Assembly: GCA_016219965.1 (NCBI GenBank) | Contig: JACRJM010000003.1 | Coordinates: 566,299-630,298, forward strand | Length of the DNA stretch: 64,000 nucleotides | Direction of reading: 5' to 3' | DNA from: Candidatus Schekmanbacteria bacterium | Lineage (GTDB): Bacteria; Schekmanbacteria; GWA2-38-11; J061 | Shown here: positions 1 through 21,312 of the stretch, piece after piece | Layout of the letters: the number at the start of each line of letters is the position of its first letter | Numbering within the stretch: the first letter of the stretch is position 1 | Notes under the pieces: generated by a model | What the model saw: only the letters and a program-made list of their open reading frames with translations | Databases searched by the model: none | Told to the model about the DNA's origin: nothing | Made by a program: the position numbers and the translations under genes

Positions 1-2
1 GA

Positions 3-1931
3 GTGACACTGCGTCTCCGGAGCCAACCATTGGACGAACCCAGGCGTGTCACACTGGTGATTGAAGTCAAAGACACCGGCATTGGCATCGCCGCCGAAGA
101 CCAGCAGCGCATTTTCGAGCCGTTCACCCAGCTCGGCAACCGGTCCGACCAGAAAGGAACAGGGCTGGGGCTGACTATCACGCGCCAGTTTGTAGAACTG
201 ATGGGTGGCAGGATTAGCGTCGAGAGCGTGCCGGACCATGGCTCGACATTCACGGTTGAGATGCAGCTAGAGACCACAGAAACTGCCGAATCGGCGGCCG
301 GAAATGTGCAGTCGGGCATGGCGCACCTTGCGCCGGGCCAGCCAGAACAACGGATACTGATTGTCGAAGATCAGGAGGAGAATTGGCAGTTGCTGAGTCA
401 AGTGTTGGAGCAGGCAGGCTTTCCGGTGCGCGTGGCAAAAAATGGCGCGGAAGGGGTCGAGATGTTTCAATCGTGGCGGCCGCATTTCATCTGGATGGAC
501 TGGCGGATGCCGGTGATGGATGGACTGGAGGCCACCCGCTGCATCCGAGCCCTCGAAGGCGGGATCGAGGTCAAGATCGTCGTTCTCACCGCCTCGGTGC
601 TTAAGGAGGAACGCGAGCAGGTGCTGGCGGCTGGGACAGATGATTTCGAGCTCAAGCCGATCCAGTTAGGGAAAATTTACGATTGCCTGGCGCGTCACCT
701 CGGAGTGCGGTTTGTCCCGGACGAAACGCCGTCACCCCTGGCCGCAGAGCCGGTCCCTGATTCGTCGCGCCCCGAGTCTCCGGCAGTTCGCGACGGGGAG
801 TTGCAAGATGCCGCCGCCAGCGGCAAAGTCACCATCCTGGCTGTGGACGACACTCCCGAATCGCTGGCGTTCCTGGTGGAGATACTGACCCCGGCGGGCT
901 ACGCAGTGCAGACCGCCGCCAGCGGCGATACGGCACTGGCCGCTGTGACCGCCAACCCATCGGACTTGATCCTACTGGACATCTGCATGAAGGGCATGGA
1001 CGGACTGGAGGTTTGTCGGCGAATCAAAGCAAACGATCAGACACGGCACATTCCCATCATCATGCTCAGCGCTTTTCCCAAGGTTGAGGATTGGAAACAA
1101 TTTCTGGAAGTTGGAGCGGCGGATTACATGGCCAAACCGTTCCAGACCGCGGAACTCCTGGCGCGTATCCAAACTCACCTGGCCTTGAGCCAGGCGAGCG
1201 ATGAGCTCAAACAACGGGCGGTCATGCTCGGCCAGCTCAACGAGCAATTGCAAGCCGAGCTTGCAAAGCGCCAGTGCGCGGAGGATGAACTGCGCCAAAG
1301 TCTTGACCTGGCCGCACAGGCCCGGTGCGAAGTACTCGACATGCTTGAGGACCAGAAACGGGCGGAAGCCGCGTTGCGGAAGAGCGAGGAAAGATTCAAG
1401 GCGCTGGCAGACACCTCGCCGCTTGCCATCTATCTGTCGGTGGGCCTCGAACAGAAAGCGGACTACATCAACCCAACTTTTGTCCGTCTGTTCGGCTATA
1501 CGCTGGATGAAATCCCGACAGCGGAACACTGGTGGCCGCTGGCCTATCCGGACGAAAGATACCGCTGTCAGATAGAAGATGAATGGCAGAAGAGAGTAGC
1601 GCAAGCCATCGAACGCCGCTCAGAGATCGAGCTGATGGAGGCCATGGTCACTTGCAAGGACGGCTCCCGAAAGAACATCCTTTGGGGTTTCAAAGCCATC
1701 GGTGAAGAAAACTGGGCGTTCGGCCTTGATATCACTGAGCGTAAGCAGGCGGAAGAAGAAATCCGAAAGCTCAATGCCGAACTAGAACAACGAGTAGCGA
1801 CACGTACCGCTGAGCTTGAAGAGAAGAATGAGGAGCTGGAAAAAATGAACAGTGTTTTTGTGGGCCGGGAGCTTAGGATGATTGAGCTAAAAGAAAGGAT
1901 CAAGGAGCTTGAAGAAAAAATTGGAAGCTAA
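3..1931 (+). CDS. Hybrid sensor histidine kinase/response regulator, 5' truncated by window edge
   Basis: This is the 3' part of a cytoplasmic phosphorelay protein; the reading frame is open at the window edge, so the sensor and HisKA parts lie upstream. Residues of the visible part: HATPase_c G1 box DTGIGI near 24-29 and G2 box GTGLGL near 52-57; a first receiver domain with phospho-acceptor D166 (WMDWRMP); a second receiver with D326 (LLDICMK); a coiled-coil stretch near 395-460; a PAS domain near 455-590 ending in the usual DITERKQ tail; and a C-terminal coiled coil. The order kinase-REC-REC-PAS is that of a complex hybrid kinase. The DNA is conspicuously G+C-rich compared with everything after about 2.6 kb. 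The 3' end overlaps the next gene by 23 bases. Input signal and partner are not visible. Confidence 0.9.
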   Translation: MTLRLRSQPLDEPRRVTLVIEVKDTGIGIAAEDQQRIFEPFTQLGNRSDQKGTGLGLTITRQFVELMGGRISVESVPDHGSTFTVEMQLETTETAESAAGNVQSGMAHLAPGQPEQRILIVEDQEENWQLLSQVLEQAGFPVRVAKNGAEGVEMFQSWRPHFIWMDWRMPVMDGLEATRCIRALEGGIEVKIVVLTASVLKEEREQVLAAGTDDFELKPIQLGKIYDCLARHLGVRFVPDETPSPLAAEPVPDSSRPESPAVRDGELQDAAASGKVTILAVDDTPESLAFLVEILTPAGYAVQTAASGDTALAAVTANPSDLILLDICMKGMDGLEVCRRIKANDQTRHIPIIMLSAFPKVEDWKQFLEVGAADYMAKPFQTAELLARIQTHLALSQASDELKQRAVMLGQLNEQLQAELAKRQCAEDELRQSLDLAAQARCEVLDMLEDQKRAEAALRKSEERFKALADTSPLAIYLSVGLEQKADYINPTFVRLFGYTLDEIPTAEHWWPLAYPDERYRCQIEDEWQKRVAQAIERRSEIELMEAMVTCKDGSRKNILWGFKAIGEENWAFGLDITERKQAEEEIRKLNAELEQRVATRTAELEEKNEELEKMNSVFVGRELRMIELKERIKELEEKIGS

Positions 1932-2592
1932 CGACTTGTCACGGATTGAAACACCACGGTCCAAAACAGATCATGGCGAAAGTACAAAGAGCCAAATCAT
2001 ACACTGGGCATCTTTCTACGATGTAGTGTTCGGGTGGCTCCTCCGGCGTACGCACGACGAAGTTGTCCGCCTTGCTACGTCAAGCCCGGGGGAGCGGGTG
2101 CTTGATGTGGGCTGTGGGACCGGGAGCCTTGCGATCGCATTAAAGGCTTCGGTTGGTCAGACAGGTTTGGTGCATGGAATTGACGCTTCACCGGAAATGA
2201 TCGAAGTGTCGCGCCGCAACGCATCAAGAGCAAGCGCTGATGTGAACTTCACGGTAGGTTTAGGAGAAGCAATACCTTTTCCCAATGAGACATTCGACCT
2301 GGTCGTTAGCCAGCTTGCGATTCACCACTTACCAGACGACCTTAAGCAGTCTGCCATCAAAGAGATGCATCGGGTACTGAAGCCGAACGGAAGGTGCATG
2401 ATTGTTGATTTTGAGCCTCCCAAATCCATCACCGGCCGCTTCGCGACACGGATGTTTCTAAGACCAATGATAAAGATAAACGTAAAAAATTATCTCCCTC
2501 TTATGGAAGAAGCCGGCTTTACTAATATCGAAACCGGCGAAACCCGGCATCGCCTGCTGTCCTTTATCCGTGGACAAGTTGCGGGGTGTTAG
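1909..2592 (+). CDS. Class I SAM-dependent methyltransferase (UbiE/Methyltransf_11 type)
   Basis: Rossmann-fold methyltransferase that would transfer a methyl group from S-adenosylmethionine to an unidentified small molecule. The SAM-binding motif I is clear (VLDVGCGTGSLA, about residues 64-75), followed by an acidic residue region (HGIDASPEM) and motif IV/V (FDLVVSQLAIHHL), ending with a LNPNGR-like loop before the last strands (VLKPNGRCMIVDF). The assigned start is TTG overlapping the kinase gene; an AAGGAG sits only 1 base before it and 13 before another in-frame TTG at 1921, so the exact start is uncertain. The overlap indicates translational coupling to the kinase. Substrate cannot be told; the length (about 227 residues) is normal for the family. 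Confidence 0.85.
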   Translation: MKKKLEANDLSRIETPRSKTDHGESTKSQIIHWASFYDVVFGWLLRRTHDEVVRLATSSPGERVLDVGCGTGSLAIALKASVGQTGLVHGIDASPEMIEVSRRNASRASADVNFTVGLGEAIPFPNETFDLVVSQLAIHHLPDDLKQSAIKEMHRVLKPNGRCMIVDFEPPKSITGRFATRMFLRPMIKINVKNYLPLMEEAGFTNIETGETRHRLLSFIRGQVAGC

Positions 2593-2728
2593 GTAATATT
2601 AAGAAAACCTTACATCTCTTCTTCTTTCTTTGTGTGGTTCTCTAAGACAATTTTATTGACCAGCTATCGGCGGGGCATATATAAAGCAACTAAGAATGTT
2701 ATTAACTTAAATTTCAAGGAGGGGAGTT

Positions 2729-8379: not shown

Positions 8380-11127
8380 ATGCTGAAAAAATGGGGGTTG
8401 TTTTTTTCTTTAAGTTTTCTTCTTGTTTTTCTCGTCGCCAATATCTCATCAGCGGATACAGGCAAAGTAGTCGGCAAAGTAGTTGATGCAAAATCAAAAT
8501 CTGCTCTGCCGGGAGTAACTGTCAACGTTGTAGGCAGAAACGAGATGGTATTTACAGATGAGAAAGGCGAATTTGAGATAGACCTTCCTGAAGGCAATTA
8601 TACTATACGGGCTGAATTCCTCGGATTTAATCCTGTCGAAGCAAAAAATGTAGTAGTAACAAGCGAACAGCCCAATAGCATTACTCTCACACTAAAAGAA
8701 GTTGAAGCTGTCCAGGGCGAGGAAACTGTAGTCACCGGTGAGAGGCTGAGCGTGCCAATCTCAAGAGCTACGGCTTCTCTTTCTATGGTCTCATCGAAGA
8801 AATTTGAAACTATCGCAGGAGCCGATGATGCTGGCGCCATACTGAAAAACACCCCCGGCGTACAGATGGAGAGCATAGGGGGTCCCGGTTCAAAGAAAAT
8901 CATAAAACTGCGCGGACAGGGTTCACCGATTAACAGCACCAGGGTCCTTCTTCTGATAGATGGTGTTCCTCAACAAAGCCCGAGGGTTGGAACCGCAGAC
9001 CTTTCAGACTTTGATGCGGAATCAATAGAAAAAATTGAGGTAATGAAGGGTGCATCATCAGCTATTTATGGTGGAAATGCACAGGCGGGCGTTATCAATG
9101 TAATCACCAAAAAAGGAAGAAAAAATGCCGTATTCAGGTTTGACACAGGCATAAGCACTTTTCAGCACAGGACAGGTTCAAATCAGGATTGGACACAAAC
9201 ATACAGCGTGTTCCATAGTTGGGGCGGAGATAAATGGGATTATACGATAAGCGGCTCATATCTCTTCTCAAAAGGGGTAACTTATGCTGAAAAAGCAAAA
9301 ATTACTACTCAACCGGCAAAACTAAAATACATAAAGGTCAACTATCCTGGTTATCCTGATTATGACCCGAAAGCCAAAGTCAATGCTCCTCCATTCTTTA
9401 ATCAGAACATTAACAGGCTTTCAGATACGAGTGACCTCGATGATACGGAGAACTATAACTTCCAGTCGTCGTTCGGATTAAGTCCATTCAAAGGGAATTA
9501 TCTCAGGGTTACGGGAGGTTATTCTTTCAGACATGGTCCTTCCCCGTTCGGCGTTTTTACTGCACCGACAATAATACTCGTAACAAACAACAGGAGAGAC
9601 TATTCAAACATAATCGATGACTGGGAGATCACTCCTAAACTTAAATACAGCCTTAAGATAGGCCTCGCAAAACAGACTGATATTGCTGACATGTTCTTTG
9701 CATCAAGCAACTATACAACAGTGCATACAGGTGGTTATCTGGTGAAACACGGCATAGACCCGCAGGATGACATAGATTTCTATGGAGCTACAGGCGTGCC
9801 GCTTAACCCTAACCCTTTCCATTATTATTCCAAAACATGGAGCATGGATAATTCGTTGAGTTACAGCTCGGACATATTAGAGCCCGACGGGAACGGTTTG
9901 ACAATAGGCCAGCAGTACAGATGGGAAAAGGTTGATCTTCCTCCTTCAAAGAATCTCGGGCTTCAGCAGTTTGACAGAACGCCAATTCACAGAAAATTCA
10001 CATCCCTCTATTTTCAGGATGTCCAGAAGTTCGGGCCATTAAACCTTAATGTTGGCGGCAGATGGGAACAGATTACATCTTTTTTTGATGATTGGGATGA
10101 CGAGTTCTCGCCGAGGGTTGCAATCAACTATGAAATTGCCCCGGGTACATCATTCAGGGCTTCAGCCGGAAGGGCTTTCAGGGCGCCTGAATATAGCCAC
10201 ATACATTTTCTTGGCGGCGAAAATAACAAATATTATGGCAACCCTAATCTGAAATATGAAACAACATGGTCATACGAAATGGGGCTTAAGTTCCTTACAA
10301 AGTATTTAAGCGGAGATATAGCATATTTCTACTCTGATTATTCAGATGCGGAAATACCGATTCCATTCCTTGCAACCAATCCCAAGTATATAGACCTCAG
10401 AGATCCCAGCAATCTGCAGTTCTTCAAGATTTATCAGAAGAACAGGGAAATTATAGGAAATGATATTGCAAGGGAAATAGACCGCATCGTTGAATACTAC
10501 ACTAAGAAGAAATTTGTGCGTGCAGACGGTACTGTAATTGATAAAAAATTCTTAATTGAGAACTCGCAGAGGGGCTTTACATGGGTTAACAGAGGCAGTT
10601 CCGCATATCAGGGCTTTGACACTAACTTTGATGTTTCAAACCCGTGGCTTCCTGACCTTATGCTGAGCGTAAGTTATCTTTTTACCAGGGCAGTTGCAGG
10701 AAACCCCAATCCATTTGATTTTTCTCAGGGGTCTGCTCCAACGCCGACATTGGGTGCCAATGCGACCGGCGGAAAAAGAAAAGCCGTTCCTCTTGATCTT
10801 CTCGAAAGGCCCGGCGAGAAGCTTGTAGATGTTCCTACTCATACGGCAAGAGTCGGTGCTTCCTACAAATTCCCCTTTGGTCTTCTTGCCAATGTGAGCG
10901 GCAGATTCAAAAGCACTACATTATACAAGACTCCTTACGGGGTTGGCGGCGCCATAAAACAGCCTGAACACTGGGTTTGGGATTTATCGTTTGTACAGTC
11001 ATTGTATAATGAAAAAATGAAACTGAAATTTGCAATAGAAAATGTTTTCAGCAAAAGTTACTATGAAGTGGGGCTGATTCCATCAACGGTTGCCCGGTAT
11101 GAGCTGGGATTATCATGGAATTTCTAA
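8380..11127 (+). CDS. TonB-dependent outer membrane receptor with N-terminal CarboxypepD_reg-like domain
   Basis: 915-residue outer membrane transporter. An N-terminal signal peptide ends near SSADT (about residue 26), followed by a carboxypeptidase-regulatory-like beta sandwich (GKVVDAKSKSALPGVTV... YTIRAEFLGF, about 28-105), a TonB-box-like stretch (EETVVTGERL), the plug domain (ILKNTPGVQ... LLIDGVPQ... IEVMKGASSAIYGG... GVINVITKKG) and a long beta barrel ending in a terminal aromatic residue (GLSWNF). The barrel carries the usual RAPEY and YELG features. The ligand is not evident; no Fur box, cobalamin riboswitch or heme gene is visible nearby. It is followed by 64 bases and then an exported FN3-like protein before a strong terminator, so the two form a transcription unit. 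Confidence 0.93.
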   Translation: MLKKWGLFFSLSFLLVFLVANISSADTGKVVGKVVDAKSKSALPGVTVNVVGRNEMVFTDEKGEFEIDLPEGNYTIRAEFLGFNPVEAKNVVVTSEQPNSITLTLKEVEAVQGEETVVTGERLSVPISRATASLSMVSSKKFETIAGADDAGAILKNTPGVQMESIGGPGSKKIIKLRGQGSPINSTRVLLLIDGVPQQSPRVGTADLSDFDAESIEKIEVMKGASSAIYGGNAQAGVINVITKKGRKNAVFRFDTGISTFQHRTGSNQDWTQTYSVFHSWGGDKWDYTISGSYLFSKGVTYAEKAKITTQPAKLKYIKVNYPGYPDYDPKAKVNAPPFFNQNINRLSDTSDLDDTENYNFQSSFGLSPFKGNYLRVTGGYSFRHGPSPFGVFTAPTIILVTNNRRDYSNIIDDWEITPKLKYSLKIGLAKQTDIADMFFASSNYTTVHTGGYLVKHGIDPQDDIDFYGATGVPLNPNPFHYYSKTWSMDNSLSYSSDILEPDGNGLTIGQQYRWEKVDLPPSKNLGLQQFDRTPIHRKFTSLYFQDVQKFGPLNLNVGGRWEQITSFFDDWDDEFSPRVAINYEIAPGTSFRASAGRAFRAPEYSHIHFLGGENNKYYGNPNLKYETTWSYEMGLKFLTKYLSGDIAYFYSDYSDAEIPIPFLATNPKYIDLRDPSNLQFFKIYQKNREIIGNDIAREIDRIVEYYTKKKFVRADGTVIDKKFLIENSQRGFTWVNRGSSAYQGFDTNFDVSNPWLPDLMLSVSYLFTRAVAGNPNPFDFSQGSAPTPTLGANATGGKRKAVPLDLLERPGEKLVDVPTHTARVGASYKFPFGLLANVSGRFKSTTLYKTPYGVGGAIKQPEHWVWDLSFVQSLYNEKMKLKFAIENVFSKSYYEVGLIPSTVARYELGLSWNF

Positions 11128-11191: not shown

Positions 11192-13072
11192 ATGAAACTA
11201 AAAGATTTTAAAAAACTCATATGGTTAATTCTATTGTCAGTCTTAACAGGGGTTGGGATGCTTATCGCTGCAGCGCCTTCAGATGCGGCAAAGAAGAGCG
11301 AAAACCTTTTGTTCAGGGTAGGGGAGAACAGCCTTAGCATTGGTTCGCTTGGCGGTGAAGTTGCAATTTCTGACCCGACTAACCCTCTGTATGGAGCAGG
11401 AATAAGTTTTGGTGCAAGCGATTTTCTTGGTAATAAAAATACTGGTTCTCTTGACGACAGGAGCTTTACTCTTTACCAGATAGATAATGCGATAAAAATT
11501 AAAAAAGATAAAGATGGCAATCCGAGGATTCTTGAAGTTATGCCGTCAAAGAATACAACAAGTATCCTCATGGGAACTGTGGCGTTTAAACCGAAAAAAA
11601 AGAAGGGGACTATTTTTAAAGATATCGTATTCCCTTCTGAGAACACCTATGCCTCAATGATAACAGCCAATGAACAACATGATAATATTATTGTTTTGCA
11701 TATAGATACAGATGGTGTTCAGGACAAGTATGGAGTACTTCATGGAGAAAAATTTCCAACATATTTCATTAAAGACGTAAAATTTAAAAACTATAAACTG
11801 TCAAAAGCCTATGGAGCAAAAGGGGTATATTTTAAGAATATACGGCTTCCTGTTTTTACCACTTCTGCAGACCTTCCTGAGAATCTCCCGAATGGCGCTC
11901 AAGTAGTCCTTATTCAGGTTCTTCAGGTTCCGAGGGTTTCTGTAAGCCTTAATGCACCGTCAAATTTTAAAGCAAAAAATAGTCCGGTAGTTGCAGTTGG
12001 ACCTGCGGTTACATTTTCTGCTACTAACACTTTACTGGGAGTTTCAAATAACCCAACTGCCCCCGGTTCTTTTGCCGGCACGATAGAAGTACCCTATTAC
12101 ACTGGTGTGGTAAGTGCACTTGGAATAAACATCGACGATCTTCTTTTATATAAACAAAATGGCAAGAACTTTGAACCTGTTATCACTGCAACCATTTCTA
12201 ATAATTTAGATACTGCAACGATTTCTGCCAAAAATCTTGTTGAGGTTGAGGTTATTACCACAGGGGAAGACGTTGTTACCAAGACCAAGACCTATTCACT
12301 AGATTTCGGAACCTATCTGGTTGTTGCACCATCTTCTAGCGAGACAAATTCTCTCCCGGCGATTCTGAGTCTAAGCGCTGAAAATAAAAAAAGCGGCAAA
12401 GTAGAAATTAAATATATTCTTTCCGATGCGGAAAGTGATCCGTGTGATGTAAAGATCGAATACAGAAAAAGCCCTGTGACTGATAACACAGGATGGACAG
12501 AGATCGAAACACTAACTGGCGTAAAACCAAATTCAAAAAAGAGCAAGACATTTACATGGGATTCATCTGCCGACCTTTCGGATTTTACAGGTTTTTTACA
12601 GGTAAGAGTAACTCCGAGCCAGCAAATAGATTCAACATCAGTCAACGGAGCATGGAGAGTAAGCAGCACTTTCAGCGTAGATAATGGAGGAATAACAATC
12701 AGCGCTCCCACAGGTCTTAAGGGAACTGTTGTAAACTTTGTTGAAGATGTAATTTCAAACGACATAGATACTCCGCCTCAGGTCGTTTTAAACTGGAATG
12801 CAGTAGATACTGCATCGGGCTATAATATTTACAGACAGGCGCGTTTTAAGAACGGGATAGAAGATGCTCTTAAGGTAATCAAGACTATTGATAGCTCTGC
12901 AACTACCACTTTTACAGACAGCAAAGACAATGGTACTCTTGATGCGGCTTTCTTTGAGGCATTTTATAGTATAACGGCTTTCGATGCTGAAGGAAATGAG
13001 AGCAAATATGCTAAGAAGCTGCATGTTGCAAGTATAGTGTTTGGAAGCTATGGATATTACGGTACGGAATAA
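11192..13072 (+). CDS. Exported beta-rich protein with C-terminal FN3-like domain, paralog A
   Basis: 626-residue exported protein of unknown function with a Sec signal peptide (LIWLILLSVLTGVGMLIAAAPSDA, cleavage near residue 32). After it comes a conserved block (SLSIGSLGGEVAISDPTNPLYG) also found in the next gene, then several beta-rich segments; near 395-465 an SDAESDPCDVKIEYRKSP block, and a C-terminal fibronectin type III-like domain (PQVVLNWNAVDTASGYNIYR ... YSITAFDAEGNES). Such architecture suits a surface or periplasmic binding protein. It is co-transcribed with the TonB receptor and ends before a strong terminator. The tandem copy at 13215-14963 shares the same block order. Confidence 0.75.
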   Translation: MKLKDFKKLIWLILLSVLTGVGMLIAAAPSDAAKKSENLLFRVGENSLSIGSLGGEVAISDPTNPLYGAGISFGASDFLGNKNTGSLDDRSFTLYQIDNAIKIKKDKDGNPRILEVMPSKNTTSILMGTVAFKPKKKKGTIFKDIVFPSENTYASMITANEQHDNIIVLHIDTDGVQDKYGVLHGEKFPTYFIKDVKFKNYKLSKAYGAKGVYFKNIRLPVFTTSADLPENLPNGAQVVLIQVLQVPRVSVSLNAPSNFKAKNSPVVAVGPAVTFSATNTLLGVSNNPTAPGSFAGTIEVPYYTGVVSALGINIDDLLLYKQNGKNFEPVITATISNNLDTATISAKNLVEVEVITTGEDVVTKTKTYSLDFGTYLVVAPSSSETNSLPAILSLSAENKKSGKVEIKYILSDAESDPCDVKIEYRKSPVTDNTGWTEIETLTGVKPNSKKSKTFTWDSSADLSDFTGFLQVRVTPSQQIDSTSVNGAWRVSSTFSVDNGGITISAPTGLKGTVVNFVEDVISNDIDTPPQVVLNWNAVDTASGYNIYRQARFKNGIEDALKVIKTIDSSATTTFTDSKDNGTLDAAFFEAFYSITAFDAEGNESKYAKKLHVASIVFGSYGYYGTE

Positions 13073-13214: not shown

Positions 13215-14963
13215 ATGAAATCAATTTATTCCAAAATACGGAGCAGATTTATTCTGACGGCATTGATATATGTTTTAATGGCGGCAATGAGTACGGTCCC
13301 GCTTTATGGAAAAATATATAAAAAAGGAGAAAACAGTCTCAGAATAGGCGGCCTGGGCGGAGAGGTCCTGATTTCCGACCCTACAAGCCCGCTCTACAAG
13401 GCAAGTGTTAGTTTTGGAGAAAATGGGCTTCTAAACAGCGAGAAGGAAAGAAAGTTCATTCTGCTTCAGATCGATAATGCCGGAGAGATTAAGAAAGATC
13501 AAAACGGCAACCGCAGGATACTGACAGTCAAACCCACAAGCGACACTACAAAGATCATTAGAGGACGTGTGACTCTTCTGCCTTCAGAAAGTAAAAAGAA
13601 AGCCCTGCCATTTGTTTTGACAAGGCCTTCGCTTAGAGCGAACAAGACACATTCCAATATACTTACTCTTTATATCGATAGCGATGAAGATGGTATTGCT
13701 GATAAATTCCCAATTTATTTTATAAAGCACCTGAAATACAAAAATTATACACTTCCAAAAAAATTCGGGGCAAAGGGGTTTTACTTCAAAAAAGCAAGAT
13801 TACCCATAATCACTACATTTACAGATATTGAGATAGATGATAACTGGAAGATAATTAAAGTAAAGGTCGAGGAACCGCCCAATGTGTCCATAGACATGAA
13901 AGCGCCTTCCAGAACAAAGCTTGATAAAGTTAACTCGAAAGTAACTGTAATTGCCGTTGGACCTCCTGTGACAGTGGATGCAGTGTCATCGCTGAGTGCG
14001 AACGCTCCTAAGAGCTTTACCGGCACATTAACAGTTCCTTATTATGCGGATGCAGTGGACGCTTTGGGTGTTAGCGCTACGGATTTGCAGCTATATAAAA
14101 TAGAAAAGAACAAGAAAAGTAAAAAGTACGAATTCATTTCCGCAACAGATGATCTTTCTGTCAACGGTGATGATACTATTTCTGCAAATGGAACTTTGCC
14201 CTTTACTACCTATCAGGCGGTGGTTGTATCTGACACCAGCATGACAGTTCCGGAAATACTGGACGTGAAAGTTGTTCCTGAGAACAATGGGAAAGTTTCC
14301 GTGAAATATAAACTTGCAGATGCTAAAAAGAAAAACCATTCTGATGTCAGGATAGAATACCGGAAAAATCCTACTACTGATCCTGATGCAGGATGGACTG
14401 TAATAACAACAACGACCGGAGTTAAACCTAAGGCAGGTACGTTTAGAACAGTTGTATGGGACACTTTATCTGATACTGCGACAGAAAATTTTTCAGGACA
14501 CGTGCAGGTGAAAGTAGTTCCAGAATATGAGATTACAACCGGGGAAAAGATAGACGGGGCAGGGAGAGTATCCGAGACATTCCGGATAGATAATTCCGGG
14601 GTAACCATAAGCGCACCGGAAAATCTTCACGCGACTGTTACTAATTTTTCGGAGAATGAGATTTCAGGAGGAATAGAAACCAATCCTCCTGTGGTAACTC
14701 TTACATGGGATGTTTCCTCCGGAGATATAGCAGGCTATAATATTTACAGGAAGGCACGCTACAGAGCCGGAATAGATAATACATTCACCATAATCAAATC
14801 CATTGATGATCCTGCCACAACTGCGTTTACTGACAGCAAGGATAATGTGACTCTTAGCTCTTCTTTTTACGAGGCAATCTACAGAATCACAGCCTTTGAT
14901 TCCGAAGGAAATGAGAGCAAGTTTTCAAATGAAAAGAAAGTCACAAGCATAGTTTTGAACTAA
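13215..14963 (+). CDS. Exported beta-rich protein with C-terminal FN3-like domain, paralog B
   Basis: 582-residue tandem paralog of the preceding gene. Shared blocks in the same order: signal peptide, SLRIGGLGGEVLISDPTSPLY, a HLKYKNYTLPKKFGAKG block matching KNYKLSKAYGAKG of paralog A, DVRIEYRKNPTT, GRVSETFRIDNSGVTISAP, and a final FN3-like domain (VTLTWDVSSGDIAGYNIYRKARY ... YRITAFDSEGNESKF). It lacks some of the inserts of paralog A and ends shortly after the FN3 domain. It has its own upstream region after the terminator, so it is probably expressed separately. Function unknown; likely extracytoplasmic partner or duplicate of paralog A. Confidence 0.75.
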   Translation: MKSIYSKIRSRFILTALIYVLMAAMSTVPLYGKIYKKGENSLRIGGLGGEVLISDPTSPLYKASVSFGENGLLNSEKERKFILLQIDNAGEIKKDQNGNRRILTVKPTSDTTKIIRGRVTLLPSESKKKALPFVLTRPSLRANKTHSNILTLYIDSDEDGIADKFPIYFIKHLKYKNYTLPKKFGAKGFYFKKARLPIITTFTDIEIDDNWKIIKVKVEEPPNVSIDMKAPSRTKLDKVNSKVTVIAVGPPVTVDAVSSLSANAPKSFTGTLTVPYYADAVDALGVSATDLQLYKIEKNKKSKKYEFISATDDLSVNGDDTISANGTLPFTTYQAVVVSDTSMTVPEILDVKVVPENNGKVSVKYKLADAKKKNHSDVRIEYRKNPTTDPDAGWTVITTTTGVKPKAGTFRTVVWDTLSDTATENFSGHVQVKVVPEYEITTGEKIDGAGRVSETFRIDNSGVTISAPENLHATVTNFSENEISGGIETNPPVVTLTWDVSSGDIAGYNIYRKARYRAGIDNTFTIIKSIDDPATTAFTDSKDNVTLSSSFYEAIYRITAFDSEGNESKFSNEKKVTSIVLN

Positions 14964-15145: not shown

Positions 15146-16111
15146 ATGCAGGAGATAAAGCAAGATTTACAGAGAGTAAATGACGCCCTTGTAAACAAGA
15201 TAAAAGTCAGGGGAAATCCTGTTGCCATTTCATTTATAAAGGACAAGCCCTTTCCCGGTTATGAACCGGTGCAGGACTGCCCCTGCTCCATAGTCCGCTA
15301 TGCCATGGATGAAGGGAAGATGGTTTACTTTGATGAAACCCACAACGACTGCCTTGTAGGCGTGCACCATGCGGGGATTTTGCCGGGGAAATCTGAGATA
15401 ACAACCGGGCATTATCTTTCCGGAACAAGCAACTTCTTTACTGAAGAAGCCGCGATGCGGAATAAAGGCGCATCATATTCTTTACCTCAAGGCCTTGTAA
15501 AAGGGATTGCTGCTGCGCCTCTTTTAAAAGTTCCGGAAGATGTGAAGATAGAATGGGTGGTAGTTGTCTGCACACCTTTTCAGGCTAATAATGTAGCAGG
15601 CTCTGTGACATGCCGCGACGGAGCCTTTCCTTACGGCGAATTAGGCGCATCTCTATGCGCATCCCTTTTTGCAACACCATGGTATGAGCGCAACATAGTT
15701 TATACGCCCGGGGATTTTGGCGGGAGAATGCACAACAGGATAAAAAAGGAAGAGATGCTAGTGATAGTTCCCTACAACATGCTCCATTATATTGTTGAGC
15801 TTATGGATGACATGCGTATGGATATCAAGCTTTCAAGGGAGATGACAAAGCCTTCCCATTCTGATTTCTGGAAAGGAAAAAAAGGGGAGATTGTTATTGA
15901 AAAAGCCCCTCAGGAAAAGGCTGACCTTGAAGGGGTGAAGTTCACGATGGAATGGGATGATGAGGCAAAGGCGATGATGAAAGATGTTCCTGATGGAATA
16001 TTGGAAATGGCAGTTGGCAATGCAGAAGAATATGCAAGGGAGCAGTCCTACCCAAAAGTCAGCAAAAAATCCATTGATGAACTTATGAAAAAGCTGGGGT
16101 TCGAATTTTAA
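15146..16111 (+). CDS. DUF169 protein with C-terminal PCP_red domain
   Basis: 321-residue cytoplasmic protein. Residues 1 to about 235 match the DUF169 pattern (NPVAISFIKDKP, DCPCSIVRYAMDEG, HNDCLVGVHHAGIL, VCTPFQANNV... CRDGAFPYGELGASLCAS). The last 50 residues (TMEWDDEAKAMMKDVPDGI ... AEEYAREQSYPKVSKKSIDELMKKLGF) match the PCP_red domain found at the C-terminus of the light-independent protochlorophyllide reductase B subunit and in various redox proteins. Several cysteines in the DUF169 part could bind metal. Ribosome binding site GGGAGGTGCC gives a firm start. It heads a co-directional cluster with short gaps (16 and 36 bases to the next genes). Function of DUF169 is unknown. Confidence 0.75.
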   Translation: MQEIKQDLQRVNDALVNKIKVRGNPVAISFIKDKPFPGYEPVQDCPCSIVRYAMDEGKMVYFDETHNDCLVGVHHAGILPGKSEITTGHYLSGTSNFFTEEAAMRNKGASYSLPQGLVKGIAAAPLLKVPEDVKIEWVVVVCTPFQANNVAGSVTCRDGAFPYGELGASLCASLFATPWYERNIVYTPGDFGGRMHNRIKKEEMLVIVPYNMLHYIVELMDDMRMDIKLSREMTKPSHSDFWKGKKGEIVIEKAPQEKADLEGVKFTMEWDDEAKAMMKDVPDGILEMAVGNAEEYAREQSYPKVSKKSIDELMKKLGFEF

Positions 16112-16127
16112 TGATTTAAAGGAGCGC

Positions 16128-17054
16128 ATGATGAAATTTTACAAACTTATAATGCCTGTTTTATGTCTGTGTTTGATTTCAGCCTTTCAGGTACCCTGTC
16201 ATGCAGAGGAAAGACATGCTAAGGAAATCGCGAAAGGGGTATATGTAATACCTGACTTCGGGTTTTCGAACTGCGGTTTTATCGTTACAGACGAAGGTGT
16301 TGTCGTGGTGGATACAACTCTTTCCCCATATTTTGGGAGCGAGATACTAAAGGAGATAAAGGCGGTAACTGACAAGCCTGTAAAATATGTAATAAACACC
16401 CACTGGCATACTGACCATGTGGGGGGGAATGAAGTATTTGTTCCTCAGGCACACATAATAGCCCATGAATTTACTGCAAAGGTAATAGCCCAGAGGAAAG
16501 CAGACCAGGATGCGGGAAAAGTTGATGAACAGCTAAAGGCATTGGGAGAATTCAAGTTCACCCCTCCGGATATAACCTTTGATAATGAAAAGACGCTCCA
16601 GATGGGAGATAAGACAATTGAGCTTAAATTCTTCGGCGGCGGCCATACGGCAGGAGACATCATCGTTTATCTTCCAAAAGAGAAAGTGCTTTTCAGCGGA
16701 GACCTTTTCATAAAAGGTTCGGGGCTTCCTGATTACAGGGATGACGGCAATATTGACAGGCAGATAGCATCGCTAAAAAAAATGCAGGAACTCGATATAG
16801 ACAAGATGGTCTGCGGACATCTGGCAGCAATGGGTTCAACGGTTTATACTGCTAGTAAAAAAGACATTCAGGACTCAATAGATAAGCTTGTCGCATTCAG
16901 GGCAAAAGTAAAAAGTTACGTTGACCAGAATATCCCGCCTGAAAAAGCAGCAGAAGAAATAAAATTTCCTGCCGGCGAAAATCCATTTTACAAGCAGAAG
17001 TTCAGCAAGGTTGTGATCAAAGCCTACAATGACATAAAAAATGCGCAACAATAA
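16128..17054 (+). CDS. Exported metallo-beta-lactamase fold hydrolase
   Basis: 308-residue metallo-hydrolase with a Sec signal peptide (cleaved near CHAEE, residue 26). The metal-binding motif HWHTDH gives H92, H94, D96 and H97; the further ligands are in GGGHTAGD, the FSGDLF aspartate and CGHLA histidine, so a dinuclear site is complete. The chain continues with a helical tail (PPEKAAEEIKFP). This is the SoxH/quinoprotein-associated type rather than an antibiotic-resistance enzyme, and it would act in the periplasm. It follows the DUF169-PCP_red gene by 16 bases and precedes a Tat protein by 36. Substrate unknown. Confidence 0.88.
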   Translation: MMKFYKLIMPVLCLCLISAFQVPCHAEERHAKEIAKGVYVIPDFGFSNCGFIVTDEGVVVVDTTLSPYFGSEILKEIKAVTDKPVKYVINTHWHTDHVGGNEVFVPQAHIIAHEFTAKVIAQRKADQDAGKVDEQLKALGEFKFTPPDITFDNEKTLQMGDKTIELKFFGGGHTAGDIIVYLPKEKVLFSGDLFIKGSGLPDYRDDGNIDRQIASLKKMQELDIDKMVCGHLAAMGSTVYTASKKDIQDSIDKLVAFRAKVKSYVDQNIPPEKAAEEIKFPAGENPFYKQKFSKVVIKAYNDIKNAQQ

Positions 17055-17090
17055 GGCACAATAATAAAGCGCAATAAAAGGAGCATATAT

Positions 17091-18257
17091 ATGAAAGAAG
17101 ATATGAATGAAAAAGATAAAAAGGTAAGCCTTGATTCTCCTCTTTCAAGAAGGACATTCCTCAAAACATCAACCGTTGCTGCAGCCGCACTTTCTTTAAA
17201 TCCTATGGGACTGCTTTCCCGCGCCGGAGATGTTGCGGGTGCTGCCCCTTCAAAGTCCATAGTATCAGTTATAAAAGACACGAAGTCTATTACTGATGGT
17301 TTTGTAATAGATGGTGTCCGGGTAAGAGCCATGGTGGATGAGGGGATAAAAGCGATAACCGGTACAGGTTCAATAAAAGAAGCATGGCTTAAGATATTCC
17401 CTGATTTAAAAGAAAAAGAGGTTATTGGGTTAAAGGTCAATACCATCAACAAGAGAATACCGGCGCATCCGCAGGTGGCTCTCGCGATTGTCGACAGCAT
17501 GGTAGATGCGGGTATCAACAAGAAGAACATACTTATCTGGGACAACCTTGAAAAGTGCCTTACCGATGCAGGCTACAAGATTAATACCACTGATGAAGGA
17601 TACCGCTGTTACGGTACATATCATGGTTTGGTGGGACCCAACAACCGGATAAAAGTCCAGCCGGCCGACCCCATGGATGTGTACAGGCAGTGCCTTGACA
17701 TGGATGCCAAGGTTTACATCAAATCCGAGAACATCGAGCGACATCACAGCAAGATACTTTCCCAGCAGATAGACTATCTCATAAATGTTCCGGTGCTTAA
17801 ATCTGCCGAGTTTACAGGGGTGACGCTTTCGCTAAAGAACATGTACGGCACAATCAATCTTTCAGAGCAGGCTACATTTGGCATATTTCAGGCTGACATG
17901 CCTTCTGTGGTGGAGAAGATGCATGCGCATCGCGCAGACCCACAGATTGCCGAGGTAAATTTCAGCGAGCAGCTTATGAAGAAGACCAAGCTTGTTGTCC
18001 TTGATGCGTTGATGGGAATCTACGAAGGAAGCGCCCATGTGGATCCGCAAGGAGTAAACCACAAAATCATAATGAGCACTGACAGGGTTGCCGCAGATTT
18101 TACAGGCTACAATCTCATCAATGACAGGAGAAAAGAAAAAGGACTTCCGGCAATAACGACAGAACATGCAGGTCATATATGGTCTGCGGAGAAAATGGGA
18201 ATAGGGAATGCTGATCCGGCAAAGATAGATGTCAGGAGTTCAGTTTTACAGGCTTAA
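17091..18257 (+). CDS. Tat-exported DUF362 protein
   Basis: 388-residue protein with a twin-arginine signal (SRRTFLKTSTVAAAALSL, about residues 17-34), implying export of a folded, probably cofactor-containing protein. The body matches DUF362: VIGLKVNTINKRIPAHPQVALAIVDSMVDAG, ILIWDNLEK, DYLINVPVLKSAEFTGVTLSLKNMYG, and a late LVVLDALMGIYEG. DUF362 proteins often carry ferredoxin-type clusters; here no CxxCxxC motif is visible. Ribosome binding site AAAGGAGCAT. Position in the cluster with other Tat substrates suggests a shared periplasmic pathway. Function unknown. Confidence 0.8.
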   Translation: MKEDMNEKDKKVSLDSPLSRRTFLKTSTVAAAALSLNPMGLLSRAGDVAGAAPSKSIVSVIKDTKSITDGFVIDGVRVRAMVDEGIKAITGTGSIKEAWLKIFPDLKEKEVIGLKVNTINKRIPAHPQVALAIVDSMVDAGINKKNILIWDNLEKCLTDAGYKINTTDEGYRCYGTYHGLVGPNNRIKVQPADPMDVYRQCLDMDAKVYIKSENIERHHSKILSQQIDYLINVPVLKSAEFTGVTLSLKNMYGTINLSEQATFGIFQADMPSVVEKMHAHRADPQIAEVNFSEQLMKKTKLVVLDALMGIYEGSAHVDPQGVNHKIIMSTDRVAADFTGYNLINDRRKEKGLPAITTEHAGHIWSAEKMGIGNADPAKIDVRSSVLQA

Positions 18258-18280
18258 TGTTAATAAAGGGATAATTGAGA

Positions 18281-18345
18281 CAGGCTTGGCTGTCCCGCTC
18301 TGGCACTAAACAGCAGGTGCCTAACGGGGAAGCTACCAGTCATGT
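18281..18345. repeat. Dispersed palindromic repeat, copy 2
   Basis: The core at 18297-18322 is identical over 26 bases to 5660-5685; outer arms (CTTGGCTGTCCCGC and a degraded right side) are diverged so the palindrome is imperfect. Lies directly before copy 3 in the gap between the DUF362 gene and the next gene. Confidence 0.7.
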
Positions 18346-18370
18346 GAATATGATTTATAATTAGAGAACG

Positions 18371-18433
18371 CAGGTTTGGCAGTTCCGCTTAGGCTTAAAA
18401 CTACATGCGCCTGCCGCGGAACTGCCAAACCTG
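18371..18433. repeat. Dispersed palindromic repeat, copy 3 (perfect arms)
   Basis: CAGGTTTGGCAGTTCCGC at 18371-18388 and GCGGAACTGCCAAACCTG at 18416-18433 are perfect 18-bp complements over a 27-base loop. The arms match those of copy 1; the loop does not carry the 26-base core. Ends 28 bases before the ATG of the next gene. Confidence 0.8.
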
Positions 18434-18461
18434 AAAACTAAAAAAAGAATAAGGGGATTCC

Positions 18462-19193
18462 ATGGGTCCTGAAGAATTCAAGCACAAATTTGCAAGCCTA
18501 TTCGAAGATGTACTGAGAATGATGAAGAGTGAAGAGGTTGTGGTCGCTGAAAAGAATAATGAGAAGCTGAGGCTTAGAATTTACACGAGTAAAAGTTCTT
18601 CCATTCCTCTGGAAAAAGTGACTGTCATGTCGCTTGAAAATGGATGGGTAAAAAACATCAAAAACAAGAGTATCGTAGATGAATGCGAATTTATCGTAGC
18701 TGCCTTCAGGCCTTCATCGAATATCCCGCTTCCTGTTTTTGCAATGGAGGCTTCATTCCATTGTGGAAAATATGACCACCTGAATGCCGATCTTTTCCTC
18801 CTTTCAAAGGATCCCGCTTACAGGGCTGTGTTCTGCGAGCCTGTGATGAAGTTGCGGAAAAAGCATGACGGACTTGAAGGACTGCTTTCGGGTGTGAGAA
18901 ACCCGATGCTTGGCGATTATACATCAGGGGGAATGATGGCAGGAGATTTTTCTGAGTCATCAAGGAGTATAACATTACCCTGGGTACTTGATTATTGCGC
19001 GCTTTACAGGGAGTTTGTGAGAAGCTTTGAAAGCATCCCAGTTTTAAAGGAAAAGGCAATAATCGAAGAGGGGAAACAGGTCGGGGAGATGTTCCGTTCC
19101 ATGTTTAAGAAGGCAACACCGCGCATACTTTCTGACATACCTAACCTTTGCAGTGAGGAAGCGGGAAACAAACTTGGGAAATTATTGTTTTAA
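18462..19193 (+). CDS. Unknown protein, possible bilin-reductase (FDBR) fold
   Basis: 243-residue soluble protein, no signal peptide. I do not recognise a firm family. The central segment (FRPSSNIPLPVFAMEASF... YDHLNADLFLLSKDPAYRAVF) resembles the LPxFGxD...DLSP region of ferredoxin-dependent bilin reductases, and D110 would correspond to the catalytic aspartate of PcyA. The tail (PRILSDIPN ... LGKLLF) also resembles the family's ending. The histidine used by PcyA (LHCVMFP) is not obvious, its place being taken by FIVAAFRP. If right, this would be a divergent member acting on a linear tetrapyrrole or chlorophyll catabolite-like substrate. Ribosome binding site AAGGGGATTCC. It is followed by two Tat-exported paralogs. 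Confidence 0.45.
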   Translation: MGPEEFKHKFASLFEDVLRMMKSEEVVVAEKNNEKLRLRIYTSKSSSIPLEKVTVMSLENGWVKNIKNKSIVDECEFIVAAFRPSSNIPLPVFAMEASFHCGKYDHLNADLFLLSKDPAYRAVFCEPVMKLRKKHDGLEGLLSGVRNPMLGDYTSGGMMAGDFSESSRSITLPWVLDYCALYREFVRSFESIPVLKEKAIIEEGKQVGEMFRSMFKKATPRILSDIPNLCSEEAGNKLGKLLF

Positions 19194-19217
19194 GAAATCA
19201 CAATAAGGAGAATGGTT

Positions 19218-19859
19218 ATGGATTCTATCTCAAGAAGAGGTTTTACTGAGAAAGCATTGAAAGGCGGGGGAGCGCTCGCAGTTTTGACTGCGCTGGCTTT
19301 GCCTGAAAAGGTGATGGCGAACAAGATGAAGTTTTCATTGAAAAATGAGAGATTCTTAAACCGTAATGATCTCAGTGATGCGCTCAAATCCCTTTATACC
19401 ACCTATGACAGTACAGCCCCCTATCCGCACAAGTTCAATGAAACAATAACCAAGGCAGTGCTTTCAGCCCTTGATTTCTGCATTCCCCTGGGGATAGAGA
19501 AGGACTACGTTGACCATTACCTTATGACCATGGCCCCTGTTTTCAAGGGAATTAAGCTGGCGGTTGAGAAGGATGGTCCTGAAAAGGCATTGCGCGGATT
19601 GTTTGAAGAAACTACCACCTCCTATCAGCTTTTTGAAAGGATAAACGTAAAGCCGGGAGAGCGTTCGTTCCCATGTCCCTATAAAGGGAAGCTCGATGAT
19701 TGCAAGGAATGGATTGGCAAATATAACGGAACATTCAAATACGAGTGGAAGGATGTCTGCAACAAGTGGTGCGTTCCCGCATGGAACGGCGCAGCAAAAG
19801 ATATAGGTGTGAAACTTGAAATCATTCCCGGCGAAGAATGTCGCGTTAAGTTAGCGTAA
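19218..19859 (+). CDS. Tat-exported cysteine-rich protein, paralog 1
   Basis: About 213 residues, unknown family. The N-terminus has a twin-arginine signal (SRRGFTEKALKGGG). The body shares motifs with the next gene: TYDSTAPYPHKF, DHYLMTMAP, SYQLFERINVKPGERSFPCPYK, DVCNKWCVPAWN and a final PGEECRVKL. The CPY...C...CxxxC...GxxC pattern near the C-terminus recalls the cysteine motif of V4R/ATC-hydrolase-like domains, so metal or cluster binding is plausible. The AAGGAG is 8 bases from ATG 19218 but only 2 from ATG 19212, which decides the start. Fifteen bases separate it from paralog 2. Confidence 0.65.
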   Translation: MDSISRRGFTEKALKGGGALAVLTALALPEKVMANKMKFSLKNERFLNRNDLSDALKSLYTTYDSTAPYPHKFNETITKAVLSALDFCIPLGIEKDYVDHYLMTMAPVFKGIKLAVEKDGPEKALRGLFEETTTSYQLFERINVKPGERSFPCPYKGKLDDCKEWIGKYNGTFKYEWKDVCNKWCVPAWNGAAKDIGVKLEIIPGEECRVKLA

Positions 19860-19874
19860 TAAAGGAGAAAAATC

Positions 19875-20501
19875 ATGAATATTGATAATAATAAATCCGT
19901 ATCGCGCAGGAGTTTCACAAAGAAGGCTTTAGGCATAGGATTTCTTTCTTCGCTCGCAATTATGAATCTTCCCGGCAGTGCTGATGCCTGGCTTGATGAG
20001 AAGATAATGGAGAGGGACGACCTTGCAGACGGGATAAAGGAGCTGATCAAGACCTATGACACTACAAGCCCATACCCTGTAAAATTTTATGACGGGCTTG
20101 TGAGGGTTCATTTGAGGAACCTAGACTTTGCCGTGAAAAAAGGGCTTGCCAAGGAACACGCAGACCACTACTCTTCGACACTTGCCCCGATGATAGAAAA
20201 GTATGTGAAAAATGCAATTCCCATAATGGGGAAAGATATTTTCCTATGGGCTAATTTTGAGAGAACAAGCTGTTCATACCAGCTCTATGAGCATATAGAC
20301 ATAAAGGAAAACGAACGCTCTGTCCCATGTCCATTCAAAAGTATCCTGGAATACCAGAACAGCACCGTGGGGACTTACAGCATTAAATGGGGTGATGTCT
20401 GCAATAAATGGTGTATCCCGGTGTGGGAGAATTTTGCCAATATGGTACAATTGAAGATTAAAGTTGAACCGGGTGAAACATGCAGGATAACGCTTGTTTA
20501 G
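19875..20501 (+). CDS. Tat-exported cysteine-rich protein, paralog 2
   Basis: 208-residue tandem paralog of the preceding protein with a twin-arginine signal (SRRSFTKKALGIGF) and possible cleavage after GSADA. Shared features: RDDLADGIKELIKTYDTTSPYPVKF, DHYSSTLAP, SYQLYEHIDIKENERSVPCPFK, WGDVCNKWCIPVW and GETCRITLV. Cysteines of the CPF, DVCNKWC and ETC motifs are conserved between the two copies while one cysteine (LDDC of paralog 1) is replaced, so the conserved ones are probably the functional set. Ribosome binding site AAAGGAGAAA. Function unknown; the pair may form a heterodimer. Confidence 0.65.
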   Translation: MNIDNNKSVSRRSFTKKALGIGFLSSLAIMNLPGSADAWLDEKIMERDDLADGIKELIKTYDTTSPYPVKFYDGLVRVHLRNLDFAVKKGLAKEHADHYSSTLAPMIEKYVKNAIPIMGKDIFLWANFERTSCSYQLYEHIDIKENERSVPCPFKSILEYQNSTVGTYSIKWGDVCNKWCIPVWENFANMVQLKIKVEPGETCRITLV

Positions 20502-20523: not shown

Positions 20524-21312
20524 ATGGACGCCAGAGAATTATTGTCTGCCAATATCATAGCAGTGGGCAATGAAGTTTTAAGCGGCAGAGTTCTTGACAG
20601 AAACTCCCACTGGCTTTCAGGGATGCTTTCAAAGAAAGGCTTTGAGATAACGCACCGTTCTACGGTTAAAGATGATCTTGATGCCATATCTAAAGAGATA
20701 AGGCTTTCGCTAAAAGGCTCACCCTCTCTTCTTATAATAACAGGAGGACTTGGCCCGACTTTCGATGATAAGACATCAGAGGCGTTGTCTCTGGCATTAA
20801 AAAGAAAGCATGCAATTCACAAAGATGCCCTGGCACAGGTTAGAAAAAGTTACAGGAAATTCTTTGAAGAAGGAGCTGTAAGCTCTCAGGGTTTAACTTC
20901 AGAGAGAAAAAAGATGGCATTTATGCCTCTGGGTGGAATACCGCTTCCAAACAATGTAGGAGCAGCTCCTGCAATTTTGGTGCGATTTGGAAAAACAACC
21001 ATAGTTTCGCTTCCCGGAGTACCAAAAGAGATGAAAGATATAATGGTGAATTCTGTTTTGCCTTTGCTCAAGGAAAAGACTTTAGGAGCTGCAATCGTTG
21101 AGAAAACGATATTAACTCCATTCAGGGATGAGTCAAAACTTGCACCGCTTATCGAGCGAGCCATGAAAAAAATCCCGCGAGTTTATATCAAGTCCCGCCC
21201 GGATAAATTTTCAAAGGATACGAAAATAAAGGTCACTATCTCTGCAAAGGCATCTGATAAAAAAAGAGCTTCCCTGCTTATTGAAAAAGCTGTAGAAATG
21301 TTGAAATTGTGA
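20524..21312 (+). CDS. cinA: CinA N-terminal/MoCF-type molybdopterin-binding domain protein
   Basis: 262-residue cytoplasmic protein with the MoaB/MoeA-like domain of CinA: ANIIAVGNEVLSGRVLDRNSHWLS at the start and IITGGLGPTFDDKTSEALSLAL around residues 72-95, followed by PNNVGAAPAILVRFGKTTIVSLPGVPKEM. The C-terminal nicotinamide-nucleotide deamidase domain of full-length CinA is absent, as in short homologs. Likely a nucleotide or pyridine-nucleotide pyrophosphatase-like housekeeping enzyme; exact role of short forms is unclear. No good ribosome binding site at the ATG. It precedes hflX by a palindrome. Confidence 0.8.
   Translation: MDARELLSANIIAVGNEVLSGRVLDRNSHWLSGMLSKKGFEITHRSTVKDDLDAISKEIRLSLKGSPSLLIITGGLGPTFDDKTSEALSLALKRKHAIHKDALAQVRKSYRKFFEEGAVSSQGLTSERKKMAFMPLGGIPLPNNVGAAPAILVRFGKTTIVSLPGVPKEMKDIMVNSVLPLLKEKTLGAAIVEKTILTPFRDESKLAPLIERAMKKIPRVYIKSRPDKFSKDTKIKVTISAKASDKKRASLLIEKAVEMLKL

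Follow-up and report, generated by a model that had tools for sequence, protein, structure and literature searches.

What does an enzyme with the fold of the ferredoxin-dependent bilin reductases (FDBRs), which are known mainly for light-harvesting and light-sensing pigments, do among Tat-exported proteins in a bacterium that is presumably a non-photosynthetic, anaerobic heterotroph? The question is raised by a cluster of six genes at positions 15146 to 20501 of a 64,000-nucleotide stretch of Candidatus Schekmanbacteria DNA (assembly GCA_016219965.1, contig JACRJM010000003.1, positions 566,299 to 630,298; the whole stretch is called the window hereafter). The reading that we favor, at a probability slightly below one half (about 0.47), is that the locus is an operon for the reductive handling of a tetrapyrrole-like ligand, most likely its breakdown or detoxifying uptake, and that this handling is partly periplasmic. 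The cluster is made up as follows.

15146 to 16111, + strand: gene 1, a protein of the DUF169 family (COG2043) whose C-terminal segment resembles PCP_red; a signal peptide was not seen
16128 to 17054, + strand: gene 2, an exported hydrolase of the metallo-beta-lactamase fold (PF00753, HWHTDH motif)
17091 to 18257, + strand: gene 3, a predicted Tat-exported DUF362 protein (PF04015, PF10518)
18371 to 18433, no strand: inverted repeat in the gap that separates genes 3 and 4, where a repeat element has probably been inserted
18462 to 19193, + strand: gene 4, a divergent cytoplasmic enzyme with the predicted fold of FDBR, red chlorophyll catabolite reductase (RCCR) and coproporphyrinogen oxidase (CPO), from AlphaFold and Foldseek
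19212 to 19859, + strand: gene 5, a Cys-rich protein with predicted Tat export, from clade A of an unnamed family (SRRGF motif, alignment, tree)
19875 to 20501, + strand: gene 6, a Cys-rich protein with predicted Tat export, from clade B of the gene 5 family (SRRSF motif, alignment, tree)

The link to tetrapyrroles starts from gene 4. Like genes 5 and 6, this gene finds no match in Pfam even when E values up to 10 are admitted, and that includes the FDBR family proper (PF05996). Its AlphaFold model, based on a 28-member alignment, reached a pLDDT of 93.3 and a pTM of 0.90, and a Foldseek comparison with the PDB returned plant RCCR as the best match (E = 4.3e-7), followed by PcyA, PebA and PebB, with HY2, PebS and CPO among the further matches (E values from 4e-7 to 1e-3; TM up to 0.74 by query length). 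The model thus confirms, at the level of structure prediction, the alpha/beta/alpha fold of PcyA and RCCR that defines the FDBR/RCCR/CPO superfamily, and bears out the “possible bilin-reductase fold” proposed in an earlier note on this DNA. The likeness to RCCR is one of fold only: identity is 14%, and this organism is not known to have a pathway that breaks down chlorophyll. A profile of the 28-member alignment matched the same PDB families by sequence; because the alignment is dominated by paralogs that themselves match PF05996, this supports the group rather than gene 4 by itself. As a lone query, gene 4 found only the sister genome, with no hit in the genome contig collection, the plasmids or PHROGs and only chance-level matches among PDB sequences, and a two-row profile gave only chance-level fragments outside the two genomes. 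In a tree, gene 4 groups with its two orthologs (100/99), and the long branch of this clade makes the exact placement of gene 4 unsure.

The six genes are codirectional, with intergenic gaps of 16, 36, 204, 18 and 15 bases; the fourth gap becomes 24 bases if gene 5 starts at the alternative ATG at 19218, which reproduces the arrangement described in the earlier note. The long gap contains an 18-base inverted repeat without mismatches (18371-18388/18416-18433, 27-base spacer) and looks like the site of an inserted repeat, since the corresponding gap in a relative (G001) is only 57 bases long; it need not divide the operon. A terminator scan found 11 terminator-like sites against 6.2 expected, mostly within genes, and hence indicated no operon boundary, a promoter scan gave no excess of promoter-like sites over expectation, and an Rfam search returned no match. 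A CinA-like gene (20524-21312, same strand, identified by reading the sequence) begins 22 bases past gene 6 and may be cotranscribed.

All six families are present in a second genome of the family (G001), at 57 to 80% identity and in the same order as far as the contigs reach. One contig (C280) carries the orthologs of genes 2 to 5 in window order and ends just inside a further open reading frame with an RR motif; another (C370) ends within a relative of gene 6 (60% identical); and a third (C356) runs from an exported protein, 40% identical to the one encoded upstream of gene 1, directly into the ortholog of gene 1 (80%) and then ends. These contigs are unjoined, leaving the full order unproven, and are consistent with a single locus like that of the window. 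The cluster thus recurs beyond the window genome, and the central proposal of the earlier note withstands the co-occurrence condition that it had set for its own refutation. Parts of the gene set also recur in Thermodesulfobacteriota-type genomes. Orthologs of genes 2 and 3 adjoin each other both in G001 (57% and 63%) and in G353 (66% and 61%), which belongs to the same class as G337, a Thermodesulfobacteriota metagenome-assembled genome (MAG). At one locus of G337 itself (L033), a distant DUF169 member (22%), an ortholog of gene 4 (49%) and a relative of genes 5 and 6 lie within about 6 kb.

Genes 5 and 6 are, as the earlier note had proposed, Cys-rich paralogs: alignment and tree place them in one family, and the motifs SRRGF (gene 5) and SRRSF (gene 6), read directly from the sequence together with a hydrophobic stretch, make both of them, like gene 3, predicted Tat substrates of the RR-x-F type. 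Their only match in an NCBIfam search was at chance level (gene 6, E = 0.16). A scan of genome contigs yielded 14 further loci of the family, each in a MAG whose title names Deltaproteobacteria, Thermodesulfobacteriota or Proteobacteria, and in the resulting 25-member alignment Cys155, Cys187, Cys210 and His102 (gene 5 numbering) are invariant. The tree resolves clade A with gene 5 (95/97), clade B with gene 6 (90/90), a clade devoid of Tat signals (100/100) and a fourth clade (100/100). An A-B tandem is found in the window and at L024, L025, L027, L028, L029 and L030; given that it is kept across lineages, the pair is either old or moves as a unit.

The partnership of this family with FDBR genes extends beyond the window. 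Both loci of the family in the window genome adjoin an FDBR gene; in the second of them (L020), this gene scores 65 bits and is followed by an NIR_SIR protein. A third FDBR clade adjoins the family at L027, L028 and L030. Among the 17 genomes of the class of G337, FDBR genes occur in all 10 that have the gene 5/6 family and in 3 of the 7 that do not (Fisher's exact test, p of about 0.015 with kinship ignored). At L028 (550-9829), PorB-like, NuoE/F/G-like, ferredoxin and geranylgeranyl-reductase-type genes precede the family, with similar arrangements at L025, L026 and L029, and these could supply it with electrons. Membership of genes 5 and 6 in the V4R family, at which the Foldseek list had hinted, is not supported: TRAPP Bet3, H-NOX and PoxR chains appeared only at E ≥ 0.06 with TM of about 0.3, and comparison of the family profile with eight V4R sequences gave a probability below 1%.

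The FDBR superfamily is expanded in these genomes. A search with PF05996 found at least eight further genes in the window genome, seven of them over the cutoff, as well as eight in G001 and three in each of two genomes of the same order. Matches were present in only 4 of 332 other genomes searched, and three of these four score 262 to 272 bits and, by that score, look cyanobacterial. In the class of G337, which shares the gene 5/6 family with the window genome, 13 of 17 genomes carry 7 to 21 FDBR matches each (A5 profile). At three genomes' loci (L161, L167 and L185), a flavodoxin-like protein (Flavodoxin_5) is encoded directly upstream of the FDBR gene, and the one at L161 has a subthreshold match to the protoporphyrinogen dehydrogenase HemG.

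The remaining three genes mostly carry the domains that the earlier note had read from them. Gene 2 matches Lactamase_B (PF00753) at 116 bits (cutoff, 22.7), as expected for a metallo-beta-lactamase fold, and gene 3 matches DUF362 (PF04015) at 55.7 bits (cutoff, 24) and has a Tat signal above the Pfam cutoff (PF10518, 24.6 bits). For gene 1, DUF169 (PF02596) holds with 107.9 bits against a cutoff of 27, whereas the PCP_red domain (PF08369) also attributed to it scored 27.1 bits, under its cutoff of 32.5; the label amounts to a resemblance. Of the two members that were said to recall tetrapyrrole enzymes, gene 4 therefore stands by its predicted fold, and for gene 1 the connection is a hint. 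A literature search on the function of DUF169 found nothing relevant.

Why a tetrapyrrole-like ligand? According to a 2026 paper, the known members of the FDBR, RCCR and CPO fold all bind tetrapyrroles (PMC13193486), and the fold of gene 4 is thus the first reason. The second lies in the many FDBR paralogs, in their adjacency to the gene 5/6 family and in the neighbors found at two loci. L033 also holds FrhB-type proteins, a geranylgeranyl-reductase-type flavoprotein and a HemF-fold protein (50 bits; a similar protein at L054 scores 43 bits). At L163 (G340:C122:70000-84000, a Thermodesulfobacteriota MAG), an FDBR gene lies near BchB-like, BchN/NifE-like and NifH/BchL-like genes, and the BchB-like protein (178 bits) carries PCP_red above the cutoff. 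Since all of these score far under the NCBIfam equivalog cutoffs, they are relatives of BchB, BchN and BchL rather than these enzymes themselves.

On the fold, export signals, conservation and gene partnership described above, we infer the substrate, the electron donor, the direction of flow and the parts played by the other genes as follows. Gene 4 would act in the cytoplasm, where it would use electrons from ferredoxin to reduce a linear or opened tetrapyrrole. The products of genes 5 and 6 would fold around the ligand or a cofactor by means of their three invariant cysteines before Tat export. Once in the periplasm, they would bind, carry or process the pigment, on which the products of genes 2 and 3 may act there too. 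Gene 1 would encode a cytoplasmic accessory protein, and a TonB receptor and exported proteins encoded upstream might bring the ligand in. A stronger version, in which the expanded RCCR/FDBR-type reductases make a pigment and the Tat-exported Cys-rich family either carries or receives it, would amount to tetrapyrrole chemistry outside the cytoplasm that needs neither photosynthesis nor heme oxygenase; we consider it rather doubtful.

Several observations weigh against reductive handling of a tetrapyrrole. Heme oxygenase (PF01126) was found in none of five genomes searched, the window genome included, so that the canonical source of biliverdin is missing. When aligned with PcyA, gene 4 has Glu96 at the Asp105 site and Thr219 at the C-terminal Asp, and it lacks His88; we take Asp105 and the C-terminal Asp to be the catalytic acids of PcyA, and Glu76 and His88 to be specific to PcyA. 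The gene 5/6 family occurs with no FDBR gene in the available DNA of L024, L025 and L029, and in one genome (G343) with no FDBR gene at all. Finally, a control compared 21 FDBR regions with 20 regions that lack FDBR genes in the same two genomes, and most of the families considered as tetrapyrrole neighbors were equally frequent in both (geranylgeranyl reductase type, 5 versus 1; others, 0 to 2 versus 0 to 3). We therefore dropped the general claim that FDBR genes sit among tetrapyrrole enzymes, and what carries the tetrapyrrole reading is the fold of gene 4, together with a small number of specific loci.

The likeliest alternative holds that the FDBR/RCCR fold was recruited for other substrates, with the operon serving as a redox pathway for a non-tetrapyrrole compound. 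The altered catalytic acids and long branch of gene 4 would fit such a recruitment, as would the control and the extreme number of paralogs in heterogeneous contexts. However, every characterized member of the fold uses a tetrapyrrole, and most paralogs keep the acids: of the 28 aligned sequences, 27 have D, E or N at the Asp105 site and 21 have D at the C-terminal site. Specific loci also contain HemF-like, BchLNB-like and NIR_SIR proteins. We regard recruitment for another class of substrate as somewhat unlikely.

The invariant cysteines of the gene 5/6 family allow another explanation, namely, that the product of gene 4, a reduced bilin, is joined to a cysteine of these proteins in the cytoplasm and that the folded biliprotein is exported for sensing, storage or electron transfer. 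The Tat system exports folded, cofactor-loaded proteins, and FDBR products are held on cysteines in known biliproteins; moreover, Cys155, Cys187 and Cys210 are kept in all 25 sequences and the family adjoins three FDBR clades. On the other hand, three cysteines and a histidine would suit a metal or iron-sulfur site equally well, members lacking a Tat signal exist (L032 to L037), and no globin or GAF bilin-binding domain was recognized; an exported biliprotein seems quite unlikely. That the six genes are neighbors with no common function is highly improbable: although the metallo-beta-lactamase-DUF362 pair in G353 is not adjoined by genes 4 to 6, showing that parts of the cluster can separate, two genera of the family share the gene order and its small gaps, this pair is kept into another lineage, and the A-B tandem is kept across lineages.

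How does an operon for reductive tetrapyrrole handling relate to described systems? Rockwell et al. showed active FDBRs in heterotrophs in 2023, and thereby the non-photosynthetic roots of these enzymes, and placed FDBR/RCCR-like sequences of Ca. Schekmanbacteria in an RCCR outgroup (PMC10151467); these are probably the same sequences as ours or close kin. The 2026 paper mentions two further uncharacterized lineages, which may or may not include them (PMC13193486). The pre-PcyA clusters of the former study resemble the present locus in combining, in non-photosynthetic bacteria, an FDBR-type enzyme with two paralogs of a second family, and in the presence of iron-sulfur proteins at some loci. 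They have, in addition, heme oxygenase, two V4R proteins and a bilin-binding globin, whereas the window genome has no heme oxygenase, its paired proteins are predicted to be Tat exported and their V4R nature is not supported; V4R (PF02830) had no match in genomes G000 (the window genome) to G003. A functional parallel is provided by anaerobic heme degradation through HmuW/ChuW and HmuF/ChuY, in which a tetrapyrrole is opened and reduced anaerobically after TonB-linked uptake (PMC10404700). The protein families are unrelated to those of the window and, unlike in that system, no radical SAM ring opener was seen in the cluster (a genome-wide search was not made).

In the literature searched, which mostly excluded subscription papers and supplements, we found no description of this gene set or of its Tat-exported partners, in line with the earlier note, which knew of no such described system, and nothing relevant on anaerobic chlorophyll breakdown with RCCR. 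The accessible part of PMC10151467 gives neither gene neighborhoods nor per-genome paralog numbers nor a Tat-exported family for the Schekmanbacteria sequences. While the FDBR-like sequences themselves had thus been noted, their neighbors and the Tat-exported family appear to be new here. The conserved operon and the 7 to 21 paralogs per genome make roles of FDBR-type enzymes outside photosynthesis testable, and they offer candidate genes through which pigments derived from chlorophyll or heme could be turned over anaerobically in sediments.

Three genes upstream of the cluster may bear on how a ligand might reach it.

8380 to 11127, + strand: TonB-dependent outer-membrane receptor (PF00593, 128.7 bits; PF07715, 80.1 bits)
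11192 to 13072, + strand: exported paralog, 48% identical to the protein of the next line; membership in the cluster uncertain
13215 to 14963, + strand: exported protein of no family; the 40% identical protein of G001 directly precedes the ortholog of gene 1

The last of these is probably part of the conserved neighborhood, and the receptor is a possible import route; in G001, contig C356 stops before the place where a TonB gene would come into view. Neither exported protein has a Pfam family, and the FN3 label given to them earlier found no hidden Markov model support.

Two further candidates encoded near the gene 5/6 family were rejected as pathway members, a chlorophyllase-like hydrolase, whose match is subthreshold and which also matches 3 of the 20 control regions, and a ferrochelatase-like lipoprotein with a subthreshold match. 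Elsewhere in the window genome, two NifH-type ATPases and one nitrogenase-component-1-type protein are encoded in a row (L187, G000:C10:14000-30000), and a second, lone component-1-type gene was observed at L186. At the start of the window (1-2600), the first 2 kb have a GC content of 57%, compared with about 43% in the DNA that follows, and this part encodes a response-regulator/PAS protein; foreign DNA or an assembly join is a possible cause. Between 3931 and 7883, two radical SAM proteins are encoded in one row with a GcvH-like protein and a protein that resembles a lipoate ligase or an octanoyltransferase, an arrangement reminiscent of the LipS1/LipS2 lipoate assembly cluster (compare PMC10332631).

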